Shown here in pieces: positions 38,409 through 49,792 of a stretch of DNA of 61,970 nt (within the stretch, counting starts at the first letter, position 1; each line of letters begins with the position of its first letter). This DNA is from Planctomyces sp. SH-PL62. Lineage in GTDB: Bacteria > Planctomycetota > Planctomycetia > Planctomycetales > Planctomycetaceae. The stretch lies in NCBI GenBank assembly GCA_945905295.1, contig CAMDPX010000009.1, forward strand, positions 1-61,970, given 5' to 3'. The position numbers and the translations under genes are program-made. Under the pieces are notes generated by a model, which saw nothing but the letters and a program-made list of their open reading frames with translations, made no database searches and was not told the origin of the DNA.

Positions 38409-38874
38409 TTAGAGCAGTTCCTTGATGGGTTCTCGCTCTTCCACCAATGCGATCGGACGTCCGCTGTGGTCTGGGAGGGACGTCGCGGGATCGATGCCGA
38501 AGAGCTCACAGGTTGCGAATGATCGTCAGCTTGTCCGCAATCTTCGCCTGCAGCGGCATCAGCTCGCAAATTTCCATTCCGGAGACGTTGGTCTGAATCG
38601 GCTTGAACTCGCCTCGGTACTCCGCCGGGGCCAGCGGCTTCATGTCGTACAGGTCGACGTGCGAAGGAGCTCCGCACAAATAAATCATGATCAGAGACTT
38701 GTGAGAGGACTTCGTCTGCTGCGCCCCCTGTGCCTTGAGCCGCAGTAAATCGGCCAGCGTCAGGCCGCCAAGCCCCAGAGTTCCCACTTGCAGAAAGTCG
38801 CGGCGCGAGAGGCCGTCACACAGCCGCTTCTGTTTCTTTCCCCAAACGTTGAGCATGAACAGATCCTTAAACAA
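38409..38874 (-). pseudogene. DUF1501 gene with large internal deletion
   Basis: From ATG 38874 the frame gives a normal DUF1501 N-terminus: a Tat leader (GLSRRDFLQVGTLGLGGLTL), then IMIYLCGAPSHVDLYDMKPL and EYRGEFKPIQTNVSGM. It stops at TGA 38508-38506 after 122 aa, whereas the intact paralogue in this window has 469 aa. Immediately downstream, shifted by one base, the sequence reads ELFGIDPATSLPDHSGRPIA and ends PIKELL-stop at 38409, which is the family's C-terminal signature. The start and end of the gene are thus joined, with about 300 codons missing and the frame lost. The neighbouring intact copy lies at 40116-41525. Confidence 0.85.
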
Positions 38875-38891: not shown

Positions 38892-40019
38892 TCAGCGCTC
38901 GCTGCGAAGGTAACCATCGACCCAGCCGCGCGAGGCTTGCGGACGAACCTTGTCCGCCTCGTCCTTGCCGTCAGACAGCGTCATGGCCACCGCGAACGGG
39001 AACTTCCCTTTGGGAGCGCCGCCGGTAAACGTCCCTTCGCCCCAATACTCACCGCGAGCGACAACGTCGAAACGCTTCACTTGTTTGTTCTCCGTCTCGA
39101 CGAACCCCACCACGTCCCCCTTGAAGCCTCGTTTGCCGTCGGCGGTTTCCAGATGGAACGTGCCCGACATCCGGCCGTCGGCGAGCGTCAGCTTGAGGGA
39201 CTTAACGTCCGCCTGTTCCCACATCGGAGGTTCGCCGCGAGTGTTGTCCACCAAATGAAACCGGGCGATCCGATTGGCCAGAGAGCTTGAGAGCTTTCCG
39301 GCGACCAAGGCTTTGTGCTCGTCGGCGGTCACCCACAAGTTGTCTCGCGATAGAGATTCCTGGAATGCCTTCCGCCACATGTCGTCGGTTGGCTCGTAGC
39401 CGCCGAGCACCTTGGCTGTAACGCGCACGACGAGACCATCCTTGGGAGGCTGATACGTCCATCGCGGATCGAACCGCTTGGCCTCGGGGGGCGTGAAGTC
39501 GGCTGGCTTAAACTTCTCCAGTGCCTGGGTCAGAGTCTGTTTCACGCGATCCGGACCACGATGATTCGTGAAGCCCAGCAACTTGCCGTCGGCCGTTCCG
39601 ACATAGAGACCCTGCGTCGTGCCGTTGAAGTTGTTGCGCGGACTCTGGCTGGCGAGCTGACGATAGAAGTCCCCTTCATCGTCTTGCTGCCGACGTTGAT
39701 AAGCCTGATCGATGGCGACGTTGATGAACCGAGACTTGAGCAGTTCGATGATTTCGGGATTGGCGAAGGTCGACACACGGTCGATGACTCCGTTGTTTCA
39801 GGTGCAGCCCAACGGGTGCCCGTCCATGGCCCAGATGAAAATCGGCTTCTGCTGCTTGGCCGCTTCCTGCCGAGCCTCCAACAACGAGACACGCCACGGG
39901 ATCGTCCGCCACGGCGCATCGGCTTCCGGCTGCAGAGCGGCGTGAAGCCGCTCAAATTCGGCGGTCGATAGACCAGGGTCGGCCCCCAACAGAGCCAAGG
40001 TCAGCAGGGCTGCGAACAT
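38892..40019 (-). CDS. Thioredoxin-like secreted protein, candidate selenoprotein (in-frame TGA at codon 74)
   Basis: The gene begins at ATG 40019 with GGAGGC 7 nt upstream and encodes a signal-peptide-like start (MFAALLTLALLGADPG). The thioredoxin-like core reads KQQKPIFIWAMDGHPLGCT, then TGA at 39800-39798, and continues in the same frame without another stop: NNGVIDRVSTFANPEIIELL, ending at 38892. With the TGA read through, the product is 375 aa with Cys72-Thr-X74; as selenocysteine this would make a CTU redox centre at the place where thioredoxins carry Cys-x-x-Cys. Both flanking halves look continuous in fold and composition, with no gap or overlap at the TGA. The alternative is a simple nonsense mutation. 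No selA, selB, selC or selD lies in this window. A possible SECIS hairpin follows the TGA. Confidence 0.65.
39765..39791 (-). promoter_or_regulatory. Candidate bacterial SECIS hairpin downstream of the in-frame TGA
   Basis: On the coding (minus) strand, GGAGTCATCGACCGTGTGTC and the following GACCTTC can fold with a TCGAC/GTCGA stem and a CGTGT loop. The loop begins 18 nt after the TGA, within the 16-37-nt spacing reported for bacterial SECIS elements, and contains a GU. The fold was done by eye and is not proof. Confidence 0.35.
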
Positions 40020-40037
40020 CGAAGAGCCTCCGGTGAA

Positions 40038-40119
40038 GTAGGTCAGCCTTTCCAGGCTGACCCGATGAAGAAGCGACGCCGTTTTGTCACATTGAGTCAG
40101 GCTAGAAAGCCTGACCTAC
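40038..40119. repeat. Palindromic repeat (GTAGGTCAGCCTTTCC type)
   Basis: GTAGGTCAGCCTTTCCAGGC and the inverted GCTAGAAAGCCTGACCTAC arm flank a 36-nt centre between the candidate selenoprotein gene and the intact DUF1501 gene. Confidence 0.85.
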
Positions 40120-41525
40120 GCCAGAATCTCCTCGATCGCCCTGCCGCCGTGCGCCACGGCGACCGGGCGGTCGTTGTCGTAAACCTTCATGTCGGGATCG
40201 ATTCCCAGCAGATGATAGATCGTCGCGCAGATGTCGCTGGTGCTGACGGGATGGGATTTCACATAGGCGGCGTGAGCGTCGGTGGATCCGTGGATGGTGC
40301 CGCCACGGATGCCAGCTCCGGCGAAGAGGACGCTGTAACCGTAGCTCCAGTGGTCACGGCCGGCGTTTTTGTTGACCTGCGGCGTGCGGCCCATGTCGCT
40401 CATGACGACCACCAGTGTTTCATCCAACAGACCGTGCGAGTTCAGGTCATCCAGGAGCGCGCTGTACGTGAGATCCAGCGACGGCAGCGCGCCGCGGAGC
40501 CAGTCGAAATTCGCGGCGTGAGTGTCCCACGAATTGTCGCCGGGGAAGTCCCAGGTGACGTTCACAAATCGGACACCCGCCTCGACCAGTCGGCGAGCGA
40601 TGAGCGCGCTGGAGCCGAACAGCGTGCGGTCGTAGCGGTCGCGCAGTTTTGGATCGGCGGTGCTCAGATCGAACGCGCTCTTGAGCGTCGTGGACGTCAA
40701 CAGACCGAACGCTCGCTGCTGGATGCGGTCCACGTCGTCGAGCGCGCCTCGTGCTTCGACACGCTTCTGGTTTCGATTGAACTGCTGCAGCAGACCCTCG
40801 CGCGCCTGCAAGGCGTCGAGCGTAATGCCGTCCGCCAGCCGAGTGTTTCGAGAGAGGAACGGCTCGCCGTCGAGCACCTTCATCTTCCCGATCGTGCGGT
40901 CCTTCTTCTTGTCGAATTCCGAGAACAGCGGGTCATAGCGCTTGCCAAGAAAGCCGGCGTACGGCCCCGGATAGCGGACGGTGCCGCCGGCATTGCCTGC
41001 TCCGGCGTAGTCGGGCAGGTAAACGTAATCCGGCAGAGGCTTCGTCGCCGGGCGAAGGTACTCGCAGACCGAGCCCATGCTGGGAGGATACGTGTCCTTG
41101 GTGCTGGTGATGTCGGCCAAGGCGATCTCGTAACCGGTATAGCTCGGCAGCGGATTGTGGCAGCCGGCCTTGTGATTGACCGAGCGGACGATGGCCGTCT
41201 TGTGCATCCACTGAGCCGACAGCGGCAGCAATTCTCCGATCTGGATGCCGGGCACGTTTGTGTCGATGGGCTTGAACTCGCCGCGGATTTTTTCGGGAGC
41301 GTTCGGTTTCAAATCGTACATGTCCTGCGTCGGCGCGCCGCCAAGCAAATAAAGCAGGATCACGCTCTTGGCCTTCGCTGGCCGCACTCGGTTGCTCTCT
41401 TCGAGCGCCAGCAGGCTCGGCAAGTTGAAGGCTCCGCCCAAGAGGGAAAGCGCTCCGGCCTTCAAAGTTTCGCGACGGGTCAGGCCGTCACACAGACGTC
41501 GTCGGCTGCCTAACAGTGTGATCAT
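40116..41525 (-). CDS. DUF1501 family protein, Tat-exported
   Basis: The 469-aa protein is read from ATG 41525 (MITLLGSRRRLCDGLTRRE), with AGGAG 8 nt upstream; the frame extends to 41591 without a better start. A Tat-type leader (LCDGLTRRETLKAGALSLLG) is followed by the DUF1501 body: SVILLYLLGGAPTQDMYDLK, HKTAIVRSVNHKAGCHNPLP, VVMSDMGRTPQV and the C-terminal HLLGIDPDMKVYDNDRPVAV. The family has a sulfatase/alkaline-phosphatase-like fold and is usually co-encoded with DUF1549/DUF1553 proteins; here such a gene lies upstream (41917-44496, same strand). Its activity is not established. It is the intact paralogue of the deleted copy at 38409-38874. Confidence 0.92.
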   Translation of the reverse strand: MITLLGSRRRLCDGLTRRETLKAGALSLLGGAFNLPSLLALEESNRVRPAKAKSVILLYLLGGAPTQDMYDLKPNAPEKIRGEFKPIDTNVPGIQIGELLPLSAQWMHKTAIVRSVNHKAGCHNPLPSYTGYEIALADITSTKDTYPPSMGSVCEYLRPATKPLPDYVYLPDYAGAGNAGGTVRYPGPYAGFLGKRYDPLFSEFDKKKDRTIGKMKVLDGEPFLSRNTRLADGITLDALQAREGLLQQFNRNQKRVEARGALDDVDRIQQRAFGLLTSTTLKSAFDLSTADPKLRDRYDRTLFGSSALIARRLVEAGVRFVNVTWDFPGDNSWDTHAANFDWLRGALPSLDLTYSALLDDLNSHGLLDETLVVVMSDMGRTPQVNKNAGRDHWSYGYSVLFAGAGIRGGTIHGSTDAHAAYVKSHPVSTSDICATIYHLLGIDPDMKVYDNDRPVAVAHGGRAIEEILA

Positions 41526-41580
41526 GGCAAATCTCCTGATGCGGTCGCTGATGTACCGAGGGCTGCGTTTCAATGTTTCG

Positions 41581-41859
41581 TTAAGTAACAAACCGATGCC
41601 ACTTTACTCGCGTCGCGTCATAGTTCATTGGAATCGATGCTTTCGCTTGGTCTTCAGTGTTGCAGTCGGCATCGTTCACTACTTCCCAATGCTTGTTGCA
41701 ACTGAATCGGTAAATCGCCCCGCTCTTTTCATACTGGCACACCGCGAATCCATGCACCCATCGTTCGTCACCTTCCGTGCCGTGTTCGCCATACGGCACT
41801 TCTCCTGACCAAGACCACCAAAGCACACGTGCACCGTCAAGTTCAGGGGGTGGTTTCAT
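41581..41859 (-). CDS. Small hypothetical protein
   Basis: A 92-aa ORF lies between the DUF1501 and DUF1549 genes on the same strand. It reads MKPPPELDGARVLWWSWSGE and contains HGFAVCQYEKSGAIYRFSCN and WEVVNDADCNTEDQAKASIP. Its Trp/Cys-rich composition, three Cys, and codon use look protein-like rather than random. I do not recognise a family. No strong ribosome binding site is visible before the ATG. Placement inside an otherwise conserved gene pair suggests insertion. It could be a cargo gene or a remnant. Confidence 0.5.
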   Translation of the reverse strand: MKPPPELDGARVLWWSWSGEVPYGEHGTEGDERWVHGFAVCQYEKSGAIYRFSCNKHWEVVNDADCNTEDQAKASIPMNYDATRVKWHRFVT

Positions 41860-41916: not shown

Positions 41917-44496
41917 TCAATGTCGAAACAAAAATTCGTTGGTATTGAGCAGCGCCCATTGGATGTCCTCCCAAGCCGTGCGCTTGTTGTCGGACTTGGC
42001 GACATGGTCGAGCACCGAGCGGGCTTCATCGGGCAGCGGCGGTCGTGAGAGTGTTGCGAGGAACAACTCCGTCACAAGATCGGCATCCGGCAAGCCCTTC
42101 GCCAGAAGACGACCGAGTCGGTTATTAGTCGCGCGGAGCTTGCCGAGAACAAAGGAGCCGTTTTTCATCTCCAGCGCGCGGGCCACGTTGAGGTCGCTTT
42201 CCCGTTCGCATTCGCAGACCGCTTCGCGCGCCGGTTGGCCTAATGCTTTCAAGAACGGATGGCGGTCCCATGAGGCGTACCGACCGCCGGTGTAGATGAC
42301 CTGCCCATCGGGAAGCTGCACGGCACGAGTCCCCTCGGGCATTCCGGTGAACGACTCCGGCTCGCCGGTCGCGGAACAAATCGCGTCGAGCAGCAGTTCC
42401 GCCGTCAGTCGCTTCCGCCGGACCAGCGCGTGTGAAAAGTATTTCTCGTCCTCTTGATTGCCGGCTTTGGCGTGAGAGCTGAGCTGATACGTCCGCGAGT
42501 TGGCGATCGTGCGCACAACGTGCTTGACGTCGTAGTTGCTCTTCACGAACTCTTGGGCCAGAGCCTCCAGCAGCGCGTCATTGGCCGACGGGTTCGAGTC
42601 GCGGAAGTCATCGGGCGGATCGACGATGCCTCGGCCGAGCAGGTGGAACCAAATGCGATTGACGGTCGCTCGCGCGAAGTACGGGTTCTCGGGCGAGGTG
42701 ACCAGCTTGGCCAGCACGGTGCGACGATCCGCGTCTGGCGAAATCACCGGCGCGGGCAGACCCAGCACCTTGGGAGCCATCGTTTTCCCGGACTGCGGAT
42801 GAGTGACTTCCCCGCTGACGGCCGAGTAAATCACGAGCGCGTTCTCGCGCAACTGCCACGGATAGGGCTGCGGGGGGCTGCCCGGATTCTCGCCATCCGG
42901 CTCCGCCTTGAGCCGCGAGAACCAGGCCGCCATGTGGTAATAGTCGTCCTGAGTCCAACGCTCGAACGGATGGTTGTGGCACTTCGCGCATTGCAGTCGA
43001 ATGCCGAAGAAAAGTTGCGCGGTGTTTTCGGCCAAATGATGTGCGTCTTGGACGACGGGTGCTCCGTTGCTGTACGGCCCGCGGAAATAATTCGCCGGAG
43101 GGTTGGTGAACGTGCTGCCGCTGGCGGTCAACAACTCCGAGACGACTTCGTTCCACGGCGTGTTCCGTTCGATGTGGCTGCGCAGCCACTGCCGATACGC
43201 ATGGCTCCCCTTGATCTGAATGGTCAACCGGTTCGCGCGTAAAACGTCGAGCCACTTGTAAGCGAGGTAGTCAGCGAACTCAGGTCGCTCCAGCAACTGA
43301 TCGATCAGCCGAGCACGTTTGTCGGATGCCTTATCGGCCAGAAAGACACGGCACTCGTCCGGCGTTGGCAAGATGGCGCAGAGATCGAGGTACGCCCGTC
43401 GCACGAATTCCTCGTCGGTACAGAGATCGGCCGGGAGCAGGTTGAGCGCCTTGAGTTTCGCAAAGACGTGCCGATCGACGTCGTTGTGCTCGGGCGGATT
43501 AGGCCAGACGAAGCTGGGCTGCGGTTCGAGATACGTGAGGCGGGCGCACTCGATGATGCTGAGATAACGGCACAAGATGGCCGCCTCACCCGTCTGCTTC
43601 ATCTCCACCAGCCCATTGGCATCGACGCCGGCGATGCTGTCATCGCTGCTGCTGAACGCGGTCAATCGGGTGACGTCGCGCACGCTGCCGTCGGCGAAGT
43701 GGGCCAACACTGCCAGTTGTTGCCAACGAGCCGGTGCGGTCTGCACTCGGCTGCCGGGAAGAACCTCGATCTTGGTCATGGCCGGTAAGTCAGCCGAGTC
43801 GTCATGCACACCCTCGGCCAACCAGCCGCGAACGATCTCTTGCGGAACCGGATTGACCGACAACAACCGAGGCCCTCCCGCGTGAGGGATCTGCCCCAGT
43901 CCCTTCTTCAGAATCAAGCTCGCGTCCGCATCGAACCGATTGATGCGGCGGCCTTGAGCGGAGTTCGACAACTCGATGAAGTCGGCCGCCGGATCGTAGC
44001 CTCGCAGACTCAGCTTGAACCCACCCCGCCCGCTGGGAATGCCGTGACAAGCCCCCGCGTTGCAACCGGCCACATTGAGCGCCGCGATGAACTCATGCCG
44101 GAAACTGACCGGCTGCGGCTTGTCGAAGTCGGTGACGATGATCGGCACGCGCGCCGTCCGCTCTCCTGCCTGAATCACCAACACCGTCTCGCCCACTTTT
44201 TGAGGACGCAGCAATCCACCGCGGCTGATTTTCACGAGGTCGGGTGCTTCCACCTTCAGTTCGCAGAAGTGCGTTAAGTCTCGCTCGCTGCCATCGCTGT
44301 ATCGTCCGGTCACCAGAATCTGTCGCATGCCGCGCGGCCCGGCCAGCCGGATCGTTTCGGGCTGAACCACCAGAGAAACCGGATGCCCCACGAAGGCAGC
44401 CTTGTCGGATTGTTTCTCGGGTGAGTCGGCGGCCACCGCGATGGCCGTCGCCAACCAAGCGATTACGAATACGAGCTTGCTCGTTAGAGGCTTCAT
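41917..44496 (-). CDS. DUF1549/DUF1553 protein with N-terminal Ig-like (BIG2) domain
   Basis: The 859-aa secreted protein is read from ATG 44496 (MKPLTSKLVFVIAWLATAIA, signal peptide), with AGGA 8 nt upstream. An Ig-like BIG2 domain lies at about 35-125 (ILVTGRYSDGSERDLTHFCE) and a second similar segment at about 260-330 (LAVLAHFADGSVRDVTRLTA). DUF1549 follows (about 340-540: HVFAKLKALNLLPADLCTDE, FADYLAYKWLDVLRANRLTI) and then DUF1553 (about 590-840: ARATVNRIWFHLLGRGIVDP, RRKRLTAELLLDAICSATG). A CAKCHNHPFERW motif near residue 500 is a heme-like CxxCH. Its usual partner DUF1501 is downstream. The proteins are thought to work together in periplasmic polymer degradation. Confidence 0.92.
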   Translation of the reverse strand: MKPLTSKLVFVIAWLATAIAVAADSPEKQSDKAAFVGHPVSLVVQPETIRLAGPRGMRQILVTGRYSDGSERDLTHFCELKVEAPDLVKISRGGLLRPQKVGETVLVIQAGERTARVPIIVTDFDKPQPVSFRHEFIAALNVAGCNAGACHGIPSGRGGFKLSLRGYDPAADFIELSNSAQGRRINRFDADASLILKKGLGQIPHAGGPRLLSVNPVPQEIVRGWLAEGVHDDSADLPAMTKIEVLPGSRVQTAPARWQQLAVLAHFADGSVRDVTRLTAFSSSDDSIAGVDANGLVEMKQTGEAAILCRYLSIIECARLTYLEPQPSFVWPNPPEHNDVDRHVFAKLKALNLLPADLCTDEEFVRRAYLDLCAILPTPDECRVFLADKASDKRARLIDQLLERPEFADYLAYKWLDVLRANRLTIQIKGSHAYRQWLRSHIERNTPWNEVVSELLTASGSTFTNPPANYFRGPYSNGAPVVQDAHHLAENTAQLFFGIRLQCAKCHNHPFERWTQDDYYHMAAWFSRLKAEPDGENPGSPPQPYPWQLRENALVIYSAVSGEVTHPQSGKTMAPKVLGLPAPVISPDADRRTVLAKLVTSPENPYFARATVNRIWFHLLGRGIVDPPDDFRDSNPSANDALLEALAQEFVKSNYDVKHVVRTIANSRTYQLSSHAKAGNQEDEKYFSHALVRRKRLTAELLLDAICSATGEPESFTGMPEGTRAVQLPDGQVIYTGGRYASWDRHPFLKALGQPAREAVCECERESDLNVARALEMKNGSFVLGKLRATNNRLGRLLAKGLPDADLVTELFLATLSRPPLPDEARSVLDHVAKSDNKRTAWEDIQWALLNTNEFLFRH

Positions 44497-44818
44497 TGCG
44501 CATTCCTGCTCGGGCGCAAAAGATTCCGCCGGAGTCAATCATCCTGGGCCGATTGCTGCATCTCCGGCGCGTGAGGGGCACGAAATCGATGGTAGTCGTC
44601 GATGGAAGTTGCGTCGAGCAACGAGCGGAACGGTGAGTGTCACCGTCAAGGTCTGTGCGATCCGTGACAACCGCAACGATCACACATGCTGGGCGTAATG
44701 CTGACGGAGACGCTCAACAGCACCAGCGTTGAAGGTCACATGTCTTACAACGGCGAACCACCGCGACGAGTTTCCACGCGACATGCAGGCCGAGTCGGAT
44801 TTGGTGAGCCTCGTGCGG
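44497..44818. other. Intergenic region without recognisable genes
   Basis: This 322-bp gap separates the DUF1549 gene from the NtrC-like gene. I saw no convincing ORF, repeat pair or RNA. It should contain the promoter for the minus-strand DUF1549 gene. Confidence 0.5.
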
Positions 44819-47536: not shown

Positions 47537-49792
47537 ATGAGCGTTGAGCAATCTGTTGCGAAGCCGATTCCATTACGGCTCTTCTTGCTGGCGCATCCGA
47601 AGTCGGAGTCCGCAGCGCTGCTGGCGCAGGAGTTGATGCGGCGGTTTGTCGATCCGCCGGCGAGCGGCGGGCTGCGGTTGCCAGTCTTCTTCACGCCAGA
47701 TCGCGGCGATGGCAAGCCTCCGGAATGGGGCGGCGATGACGGCATCAATCTCGATGCAGCGGCACACACGCTGGTGGTCGTGTTGGCGGATGCGGTCATG
47801 GCTCAAACCGTGGATGGCGGCACGGGAGATGAATGGACCGCATTCCTCGAAGAAGGAATTCAACACGCTCAACCAAGCCGAGCGCACATGGTCTTCGGAG
47901 TTGCGATCGGCAAAGAAGGCTATTTGCTTTCCGGCAACAGGCACATGGTCGGAGTGAGCGAAGCGCCCGACGGTCTGAATCCAGGGGAATCGCCCACAGA
48001 CTTCAAGACCCGAATTCAGCCGTGGCTCGACAGTGCTGCCGATGATGCCGCCCTGCACATCACCATTCGAGCGCTTCAACTCTTGGAACCCAAGGCTCAG
48101 GAAGCCACACCCGGCTCTCCCAAGAAGCTGCCGGTGCAACTCTTCCTCAGTCATGCGAAAGCGGACCTCAAGCCGGGTGAAGAGGATCCGGTCCGCGATG
48201 TCGAAGACAGCATCAAGGAACTGCCGATCCAGCATTGGTTCGATGCTCAGGACATTCCGCCCGCCGATGAGTTCGAGAAGGTCATCGGCGACGGAATCCG
48301 AGATTGCTCGATCGTGGTGGCGTTCTTGACGGACCACTACGCGTCGCGGTTCTACTGCCAGTGGGAGATTCTGAAGGCCAAGGAAATGGACGTCCCGATT
48401 CTCGTCGTCGATGCATTGGCGACCGGTGAGACGCGCAACTTTCCGTACCTCGGCAACCTGCCGACGCTGCGTTGGGACAGTGCCGATCGTCCGAGGTCCG
48501 CTCGCCGAATCGTGCAGCAAGCCGTCCGCGAGGCCCTGCGATTCATGCACAACCGAGCCAGCTTGACGGCCCTGGCGGCGAATGCTCCGAAAGACGATCC
48601 GCCGGTCGACAAGATTCTGGCATCGGCTCCAGAGGCACTTACCTTGCATTGGTCTCCGGCCGACGCGGCATCGCGCGTGTTCTTGTATCCGGACCCGCCG
48701 CTGCCGAAACACGAGTTGGACGTGCTGAAGTCATTGCGCCGTCAGGCTGACTTCGTAACTCCGCTCACCAAGGTCGCTCGACGAATGCGATCTCAACCCG
48801 CGCGGACGATCGCCGTGTCGATCTCCGAAAGCGGCGACTTGGCACGCTACGGCCTGGGGAAACTGCACGAGCAGACGCTGTCTGACGAAATCTATCTCGA
48901 CTTGCTGATGGCCGGGCAAAGCATCGCCTACGGAGGCCTGTTGAAGCCCAAACTCAAAGCACAGCCCGGCCAGCCATCGACCACCGATTCCACGACGAAC
49001 TTCACCGAGCGGTTGTTCGACCTCGTTCGAGGCTATTCGCAACTGGCGAGTAACACGAACGCCACGCTGGCTCCGATCTTGAACATTCCCCCGTGGCCCG
49101 TCTGGCTGGCTTACAACGCGAATGTTCTGAAACTGTTCGGCAAAACCGCCAAGCTGAAGAAAGGAGCTCGTCCCTCCGCAACGGAAGTCCCCGAATCCGA
49201 CGACGTGCTGTTCCCCTCCGGCAATCCATTCAACAAGGAACTGCCCGACACCCCCGAGCGCCGCTTGGCGTGGACTCGCGGTCTCACGCTGATGCGGCAA
49301 CAGATGACCGATCTCAAAGAATGCCAAGCGCGAGTCATCATCGGCGGCAAGCTCGCCGGATTTTCCGGCCTCTATCCCGGAGTCGTCGAAGAGGCGTGGA
49401 TGTCGATCGTCGCGAAGCAGCCGCTGTACCTGGTCGGCTTCCTCGGCGGAGCCGCGCGAGCCGTCATCGACCTCCTCGAAGGCCGAGACCGCCCAGAAGT
49501 TCGCCAGCCCAATCTCGGCAAGAACGCCCCGCCGATCACCGACATCCTCAAACTCGCCGAGCAGCGGGGCCTCACCGTGATCGGCCCAGGCGACGAGTTG
49601 CCGAACCCACTGGACCTGACTGGCAAACTCATCCACCCCGACCGCATCGCCACCGACATCCAATCCGCCTGCCGCAACGGTCTCAAGGCCGCTCTCAACA
49701 ACGGCCTCGAAGAAGACGAGAATAAAGAACTCTTCCGCTCCACCGACCCACCGCGAATCGCGGAGTTGATTCTGACGGGACTCTCGCGCTGA
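47537..49792 (+). CDS. TIR-domain protein with SLOG-like C-terminal domain (putative defence effector)
   Basis: The 751-aa protein starts at ATG 47537, with GAGGAG 7 nt upstream. Residues about 10-140 form a degenerate TIR-like domain (RLFLLAHPKSESAALLAQEL, then AAHTLVVVLADAV). Residues about 198-330 form a second, canonical TIR domain (VQLFLSHAKADLK, HWFDAQDIPPADEF, CSIVVAFLTDHYASRFYCQW followed by Glu277, the likely NAD-hydrolase Glu). Residues about 424-660 (RTIAVSISESGDLARYGLGK, DLLMAGQSIAYGG, RVIIGGKLAGFSGLYPGVVE) look like a SLOG/LOG-family nucleotide-binding domain of the kind fused to TIR in immune and nucleotide-signalling systems. There are no membrane segments. It lies beside a type III restriction system, suggesting an antiphage role. 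The SLOG call is from pattern recall. Confidence 0.8.
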   Translation: MSVEQSVAKPIPLRLFLLAHPKSESAALLAQELMRRFVDPPASGGLRLPVFFTPDRGDGKPPEWGGDDGINLDAAAHTLVVVLADAVMAQTVDGGTGDEWTAFLEEGIQHAQPSRAHMVFGVAIGKEGYLLSGNRHMVGVSEAPDGLNPGESPTDFKTRIQPWLDSAADDAALHITIRALQLLEPKAQEATPGSPKKLPVQLFLSHAKADLKPGEEDPVRDVEDSIKELPIQHWFDAQDIPPADEFEKVIGDGIRDCSIVVAFLTDHYASRFYCQWEILKAKEMDVPILVVDALATGETRNFPYLGNLPTLRWDSADRPRSARRIVQQAVREALRFMHNRASLTALAANAPKDDPPVDKILASAPEALTLHWSPADAASRVFLYPDPPLPKHELDVLKSLRRQADFVTPLTKVARRMRSQPARTIAVSISESGDLARYGLGKLHEQTLSDEIYLDLLMAGQSIAYGGLLKPKLKAQPGQPSTTDSTTNFTERLFDLVRGYSQLASNTNATLAPILNIPPWPVWLAYNANVLKLFGKTAKLKKGARPSATEVPESDDVLFPSGNPFNKELPDTPERRLAWTRGLTLMRQQMTDLKECQARVIIGGKLAGFSGLYPGVVEEAWMSIVAKQPLYLVGFLGGAARAVIDLLEGRDRPEVRQPNLGKNAPPITDILKLAEQRGLTVIGPGDELPNPLDLTGKLIHPDRIATDIQSACRNGLKAALNNGLEEDENKELFRSTDPPRIAELILTGLSR

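Follow-up and report, generated by a model that had tools for sequence, protein, structure and literature searches.

A Candidate Selenoprotein Gene Encoding a Predicted Thioredoxin-Fold Protein with a C-T-U Motif in a Planctomycete Genome

The candidate gene and its surroundings

The window analyzed here, by which we mean the whole stretch of 61,970 nucleotides, corresponds to contig 9 of an 8.6-Mb genome assembled in 476 contigs and judged to be 97.2% complete. Its minus strand harbors a candidate selenoprotein gene (38892..40019) of 376 codons, encoding 375 residues with a putative selenocysteine (Sec) at position 74 and closed by a TGA stop codon. The first-pass annotation had described this frame as open from a good ATG to the stop except at one codon, and translation from 40019 to 38892 on the minus strand bears this out, with TGA at codon 74 the sole interruption; a GGAGG ribosome binding site (40027..40031, minus strand), read from the sequence, lies 7 nt 5′ of the ATG. 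The same annotation had left the terminal codon as a stop of the TAA or TGA type, of which the TGA part is right and the TAA part is not. The internal TGA (39798..39800, minus strand), which translation and conservation in homologues mark as a probable Sec codon, falls inside a GHPLGC-T-U-NNG motif and, as had been noticed, directly after Gly-Cys-Thr, the preceding residues being MDGHPLGCT. Cys72 of this C-T-U motif (39804..39806, minus strand) is the likely partner of Sec. The worry that such genes would be annotated as two short proteins is a fair one, because the mechanical open reading frame list splits this gene: the half after the TGA stands alone as a separate frame starting from a GTG (38892-39776), and the 73 codons 5′ of the TGA fall below the 100-residue limit of the list and so go unlisted.

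Immediately upstream on the same strand is a DUF1501 gene (40116..41591, minus strand; PF07394), itself preceded by a DUF1549/DUF1553 gene (41917..44538, minus strand; PF07583 and PF07587). On the downstream side, a minus-strand frame at 38506-38874 matches the first 66 of 390 positions of the DUF1501 profile and then meets a TGA, after which a DUF1501-like C-terminal tail continues in another frame (about 38420-38507, minus strand); this is probably a DUF1501 relic, and no such fragment is found downstream of the gene in five same-genus loci. Elsewhere in the window, the plus strand encodes a protein (47537-49792) that combines TIR and SLOG cluster 2 domains (Pfam TIR_2 and LD_cluster2), a type of protein that occurs in nucleotide-signalling defence systems. 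Among the neighbors of the best 80 of 144 related loci (see below), no partner is kept everywhere near the gene; DUF1501, sulfatase-like and oxidoreductase-like genes (the latter two named by eye) are each found nearby in nine of the 80, counts that are lower bounds since many of these loci end at contig ends.

Conservation of the TGA codon and of the hairpin that follows it

To place the gene among its homologues, a query protein in which X stands for codon 74 was compared with 59 genomes, comprising its own and those of relatives. This search returned 35 match rows in 19 of the 59 genomes, and the TGA is more than a chance event because 28 of these rows, with identities down to 26%, harbor an internal TGA; in 24 of the 28, inspection by eye placed it at the corresponding motif, and in locus L017 a second TGA is present, which is its stop. 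The TGA is found in five same-genus orthologues that are 94-96% identical (the one from genome G010 being partial) and also in homologues at 62, 59, 45, 45, 43 and 39% identity. The seven rows that lack it comprise three pieces that fall short of the position, one with Arg and three members of other thioredoxin families with a CxxC motif. The row with Arg is a paralogue in genome G043 (locus L036), which has CGC at the Sec position in a frame that is still open.

A scan of contigs from one genome per species retrieved 144 relatives, the best 80 of which were aligned. The scan used the patterns KPI[LF][LI]W[EA]M and PLGC[TG]CNN, and Cys versions were not selected against because the second pattern looks for Cys codons. 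The check called for by the first-pass annotation, namely whether homologues carry Cys or TGA at this column, gives a clear outcome among these best 80 of 144: 79 have TGA there and one has TGC, the sole Cys version being a locus labelled Gemmatimonadaceae (L169), and the residue two before the Sec column is Cys in 80 of 80. Counted by eye from record titles, the 80 loci comprise 50 from Planctomycetota, 24 from Verrucomicrobiota, one each from Kiritimatiellia, Gemmatimonadaceae and Bacillota, and three with no phylum given; most of these records are metagenome-assembled genomes, and some titles (two "Kuenenia" and one "Bacillota") may be wrong. One locus (L174) harbors the family motif GCT-TGA-NNG twice. 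Constraint on the coding sequence after the TGA is similar to that before it, with purifying selection on both sides: in ten pairwise comparisons of five same-genus genes, dN/dS is 0.033-0.198 on the 5′ side of the TGA and 0.067-0.139 on the 3′ side, where the pair formed by the present genome (G000) and G002 gives 0.067.

The hairpin that the first-pass annotation proposed as a possible SECIS element proves to be real. It consists of a 5-bp stem, TCGAC/GTCGA, closed by a CGTGT loop (39770..39784, minus strand) and separated from the TGA by 13 nt, such that, numbering the T of the TGA as 1, positions 17-21 pair with 27-31 around a loop at 22-26. Conservation and covariation were evaluated on a set derived from 97 TGA sites, 86 of which have an ungapped CxUNN motif and yield 75 distinct sequences over 39 bases; 11 gapped or paralogous sites, the Cys version L169 and locus L183 (which reads PLSC and was missed by the filter) lie outside this set. 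Over the 75 distinct sequences, 98.7% of cells are paired, a value that drops to 14-40% when the partner strand is slid by one to three positions. Three of the five stem pairs show two-sided changes, in 55 cells, counts that do not represent independent events given that the sequences are related, and the stem variants include TCGAC/GTCGA, TTGAC/GTCAA, CGGAC/GTTCG, TGGGC/GCTCA and CGGGC/GCTCG, among others. Genes that encode the same peptide, LDREST, use TCGAC/GTCGA in 17 cases and TTGAC/GTCAA in three, a purely synonymous compensation. When synonymous codons are permuted within columns, core pairing averages 93% and reaches at most 95.7% in 2000 permutations; a six-pair version of the stem gives 0.891 observed vs at most 0.864 in 2000 within-column permutations, and codons drawn from nearby usage give a six-pair mean of 0.647 and a maximum of 0.709. 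The sixth pair (16-32) is mostly unpaired when tested, which leaves a stem of 5 bp. The family loop is CGTGN, and its Arg codon is CGT in 73 of the 75 sequences and CGG in two, as compared to CGT in 12 of 66 Arg codons of the flanking stretches. No Rfam family matched the window at its gathering score. The loop, the spacing and the position within the coding region fit a bacterial SECIS element.

These data bear on the simplest reading of an in-frame TGA, that a common nonsense mutation has turned the window gene into a recent pseudogene. The neighboring DUF1501 fragment at 38506-38874, which looks like a relic, and the failure to find tRNA-Sec in the genome's own 476-contig assembly (see below) would be in keeping with gene decay; a TGA shared by 79 of the 80 loci across many genera, purifying selection after it and a conserved hairpin are not, and we consider this reading extremely unlikely.

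Selenocysteine machinery and the missing tRNA-Sec

The genome encodes SelA (435 bits; cut-off 22.8), with a second, weaker SelA match of 40.3 bits on another contig, SelB over nearly the full model (342 bits; cut-off 242) and SelD in a 797-residue open frame (292 bits; cut-off 125). Each of selA, selB and selD exceeds its cut-off in just two of 14 control genomes. A search of the same genome for the sel genes had been suggested at the outset as a check, and it succeeds in part, with selA, selB and selD all over curated cut-offs and no selC recovered from the 476-contig assembly. A selD-type gene lies adjacent to the family gene in six loci labelled Rubripirellula, Rhodopirellula or Planctomycetaceae (L149, L153, L155, L158, L159 and L161). 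These selD-type genes form one cluster and are oriented toward the family gene from its downstream side, with one short frame in between in L149 and L161, and are followed by a selA-type gene in five of the six loci and by selB-type pieces in four. The selD-type proteins of L149 and L155 score 239 and 247 bits against TIGR00476 (cut-off 125), and by E-value they rank TIGR04369 first, a model for an oxidoreductase/SelD-related fusion whose cut-off of 700 they do not reach. In L149 and L161, SelA exceeds the NCBIfam cut-off; the SelB pieces of L149 and L158, which cover just an end of each gene, reach 34 and 43 bits where the cut-off is 242, and the remaining sel-type neighbors were assigned by BLAST clustering.

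Several approaches returned no tRNA-Sec from the present 476-contig assembly. The best site for Rfam model RF01852 scores 46.7 bits against a cut-off of 47; ARAGORN calls this site tRNA-Ser, and weak matches to the model are also found in all 14 control genomes. Neither ARAGORN nor Rfam found one on the stretches that carry selA, selB and selD, and the most tRNA-Sec-like match to a tRNA pattern is a tRNA-Arg according to ARAGORN. Searches with the DNA flanking the tRNA-Sec genes of G003 and G010, with a 23-nt pattern allowing three mismatches and with a model built from the genes of 12 relatives were likewise negative in this genome. Among 22 relatives hand-picked from 58 (15 that have a family match and seven that lack one), 17 harbor a tRNA-Sec over the cut-off, all 17 with anticodon TCA; 16 of these are complete, and that of G010 is split over two contig ends. 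The cut-off was not reached by any match in G000, G002 and G005, which all harbor the gene, or in G012, G014 and G024, for which the 59-genome search gave no family member. Four genomes (G001, G004, G007 and G008) have a tRNA-Sec and no family match in the 59-genome search, and thus the tRNA does not imply this gene.

The surroundings of the tRNA gene were compared among the close relatives. In G005, the first 46 nt of a tRNA-Sec (locus L211 on contig 190, 2577-2622, minus strand) are followed by unrelated sequence, and a match to the 3′ flank of the G003 tRNA-Sec lies on a different contig. The G010 tRNA-Sec spans the ends of two loci (L109 and L110) whose contig ends share an overlapping part of the gene, a hint that this tRNA-Sec is repeated or mobile. 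The sequences of G000 and G002 part from that of G010 just ahead of its tRNA-Sec and have repeat-bearing sequence there instead; for the other G010 flank, a single weak match was obtained in G000, and G002 and G005 gave no match. The repeat-bearing sequence of the present genome at this place (locus L199, 1-2162, on contig 146) contains segments of about 60-195 bases that match several places of G002 contig 173.

One reading of this gap is that the gene formerly encoded a selenoprotein and that the sub-lineage of G000, G002 and G005 has lost tRNA-Sec, leaving the gene stranded or its product ending at codon 73. The lack of an intact copy in these three assemblies by Rfam model, relatives' model, pattern or flank DNA, together with the G005 tRNA-Sec cut at nt 46, would be expected if this were so. 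We nonetheless judge a loss very unlikely in view of the retention of selA, selB and selD in G000, the dN/dS of the G000-G002 pair after the TGA given above and the split of the G010 tRNA-Sec across two contig ends, which marks a place where assemblies break. The missing tRNA-Sec of G000 is thus read as a problem of assembly or mobility and not as a loss, because selA, selB, selD and selection on the gene are kept; it is the weakest link of the selenoprotein reading.

That UGA is read through as another amino acid, with no involvement of selenium, has in its favor that UGA readthrough does occur in general. The SECIS-type hairpin, the sel genes in the genome, the natural Cys version and the Cys at position -2 all argue against it, and its probability seems to us vanishingly small. 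Both the pseudogene and plain readthrough were rejected on the conserved TGA, the hairpin, selection and the sel genes. The gene is almost certainly that of a selenoprotein in which UGA 74 is read as Sec, a reading strongly supported because the TGA is conserved in 79 of the 80 aligned loci and Cys72 in all 80, purifying selection acts on the gene, a hairpin follows the TGA and selA, selB and selD are present.

Predicted structure, family relations and a possible redox role

A structure model built from 57 sequences of the window and related loci has a mean pLDDT of 92.8 and a pTM of 0.89. In this model, residues 34-173 (39501..39920, minus strand) form a predicted thioredoxin-fold domain, with a strand at 60-65 and Sec74 placed directly before helix 75-82. 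Fold comparison of this domain gives as its best match 3f9u_B (Z 13.1, 121 residues, rmsd 2.9), with lower-ranking matches that include AGR3 (3ph9_A; Z 12.4, 116 residues, rmsd 2.3), ERp19, DsbH (2ju5; Z 10.5, 122 residues, rmsd 4.0) and the C-terminal domain of DsbD (2fwh; Z 9.4, 109 residues, rmsd 3.1); Foldseek alone, run on the whole model, gives no match at E < 0.001, the best being 1.1e-3. Read by eye from sequence and secondary structure, the place of the thioredoxin cis-Pro has no Pro and reads T-T-Q-G-L-Y. Residues 190-375 (38895..39452, minus strand) form a predicted beta-rich C-terminal domain with no clear known fold: the C-terminal 196 residues predicted alone reach a pLDDT of 93.3, and a fold search with this domain gives nothing at E < 0.001 and a best Z of 5.6 (133 residues, rmsd 4.7). 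A sequence-profile search of the PDB returned no matches.

Against Pfam, the window protein gives just sub-threshold matches to Thioredoxin_7 (PF13899; 16.7 bits, below the gathering cut-off of 27) and Thioredox_DsbH, each of which matches one of 57 members at E 0.001; against NCBIfam, it gives one unrelated match only (E 0.22). NF041383 (VPGUxxT type 2) shows weak N-terminal similarity in two of 57 members (best E 0.00038), does not match the window protein at E up to 1 and scores 11.9-12.5 bits in three of 10 relatives vs a cut-off of 275. PF13192 matches neither the window protein at E up to 1 nor the 57 members at E 0.001. A 2026 catalogue lists 119 selenoprotein families and subfamilies (PMC13188914, Table 1), none of which is described in that table with this motif and architecture; the groundwater survey of metagenome-assembled genomes that it cites may hold members, as may the supplementary list (S9 Table) of a report of selenoproteins in two planctomycetes (PMC4807772). 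The safe statement is that the family is absent from the libraries and catalogue searched.

With selenoproteins decoded by SelA, SelB, SelC and SelD, such as Sec-containing thioredoxin and thiol:disulfide interchange protein, the gene shares an in-frame UGA and a coding-region hairpin directly 3′ of it, as well as selA, selB and selD in the genome and a predicted thioredoxin fold; it differs from them in a C-T-U motif with Cys before Sec and a C-terminal domain of about 190 residues. The predicted fold is also that of Thioredoxin_7, DsbH-like and DsbD C-terminal thioredoxin domains, which carry CxxC in place of the CxUxxG of the window protein, and the Pfam score lies below the cut-off. NF041383 is by its name a thioredoxin-like (seleno)protein with a different motif. 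Compared by its description in Table 1 of the catalogue, Sec.1 (PF13192, CxU) has the CxU motif and the thioredoxin-like label in common with the window protein, which differs in having no PF13192 domain match.

At UGA 74, ribosomes would insert selenocysteine through the SelB pathway of bacteria, directed by the hairpin with its apical CGUGN loop that starts 13 nt after the UGA. The predicted fold and the Cys two residues upstream suggest that C-T-U is a redox centre, in which Sec74, at the start of the active-site helix of the predicted thioredoxin-fold domain, would be the attacking selenolate, and the resolving thiol would come from Cys72 to form a C-T-U selenenylsulfide. We lean toward this Cys72-Sec74 mechanism with moderate confidence. 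Distant paralogues with Cys at position -1 (GGC-U, GAC-U) or none (TFT-U) show that the partner position varies across the wider group, and Sec might instead work by itself or together with a small thiol, in the manner of peroxidases, with the C-terminal domain setting the substrate; set against the Cys72 kept in 80 of 80 family loci, this version of the selenoprotein is a lesser possibility, yet a substantial one. In the Cys72-Sec74 scheme, the beta-rich C-terminal domain probably binds a substrate or partner. The N-terminus of the window protein is hydrophobic but short, and hydrophobic N-termini read by eye indicate that the protein is probably exported; its likeliest job would be thiol/disulfide or peroxide reduction in the cell envelope.

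Distant relatives in this and other genera have Cys directly before Sec (PLGGC-U, GIGAC-U, PRGGC-U and PVGRC-U) and predicted hairpins after the TGA. A second candidate in the present genome (locus L039 on contig 163, match 1501-1731) reads TFT-TGA-NNAEAYR, with a predicted hairpin and no neighboring Cys. These relatives suggest that the Sec proteins form a wider set in which the redox partner varies. We tentatively suggest, at somewhat less than even confidence, a large family of near-obligate Sec proteins, that is, thioredoxin-fold proteins of the C-T-U type in Planctomycetota and Verrucomicrobiota that are exported, have a C-terminal domain dedicated to them and almost never use Cys, with side branches of the xC-U or TFT-U type, and lying in some lineages beside selenium genes, where the family may keep the selenocysteine trait alive. 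Because a gene caller for which TGA is always a stop would split each of these genes into two parts, a widespread selenium-dependent protein is probably hidden in planctomycete and verrucomicrobial genomes. The analysis yields a clean set of 75 distinct bacterial SECIS-type hairpins with compensatory changes and provides a concrete protein for testing selenium use in these aquatic bacteria; how rarely Cys takes the place of Sec in the loci examined is relevant to the question of why certain lineages have kept selenocysteine.
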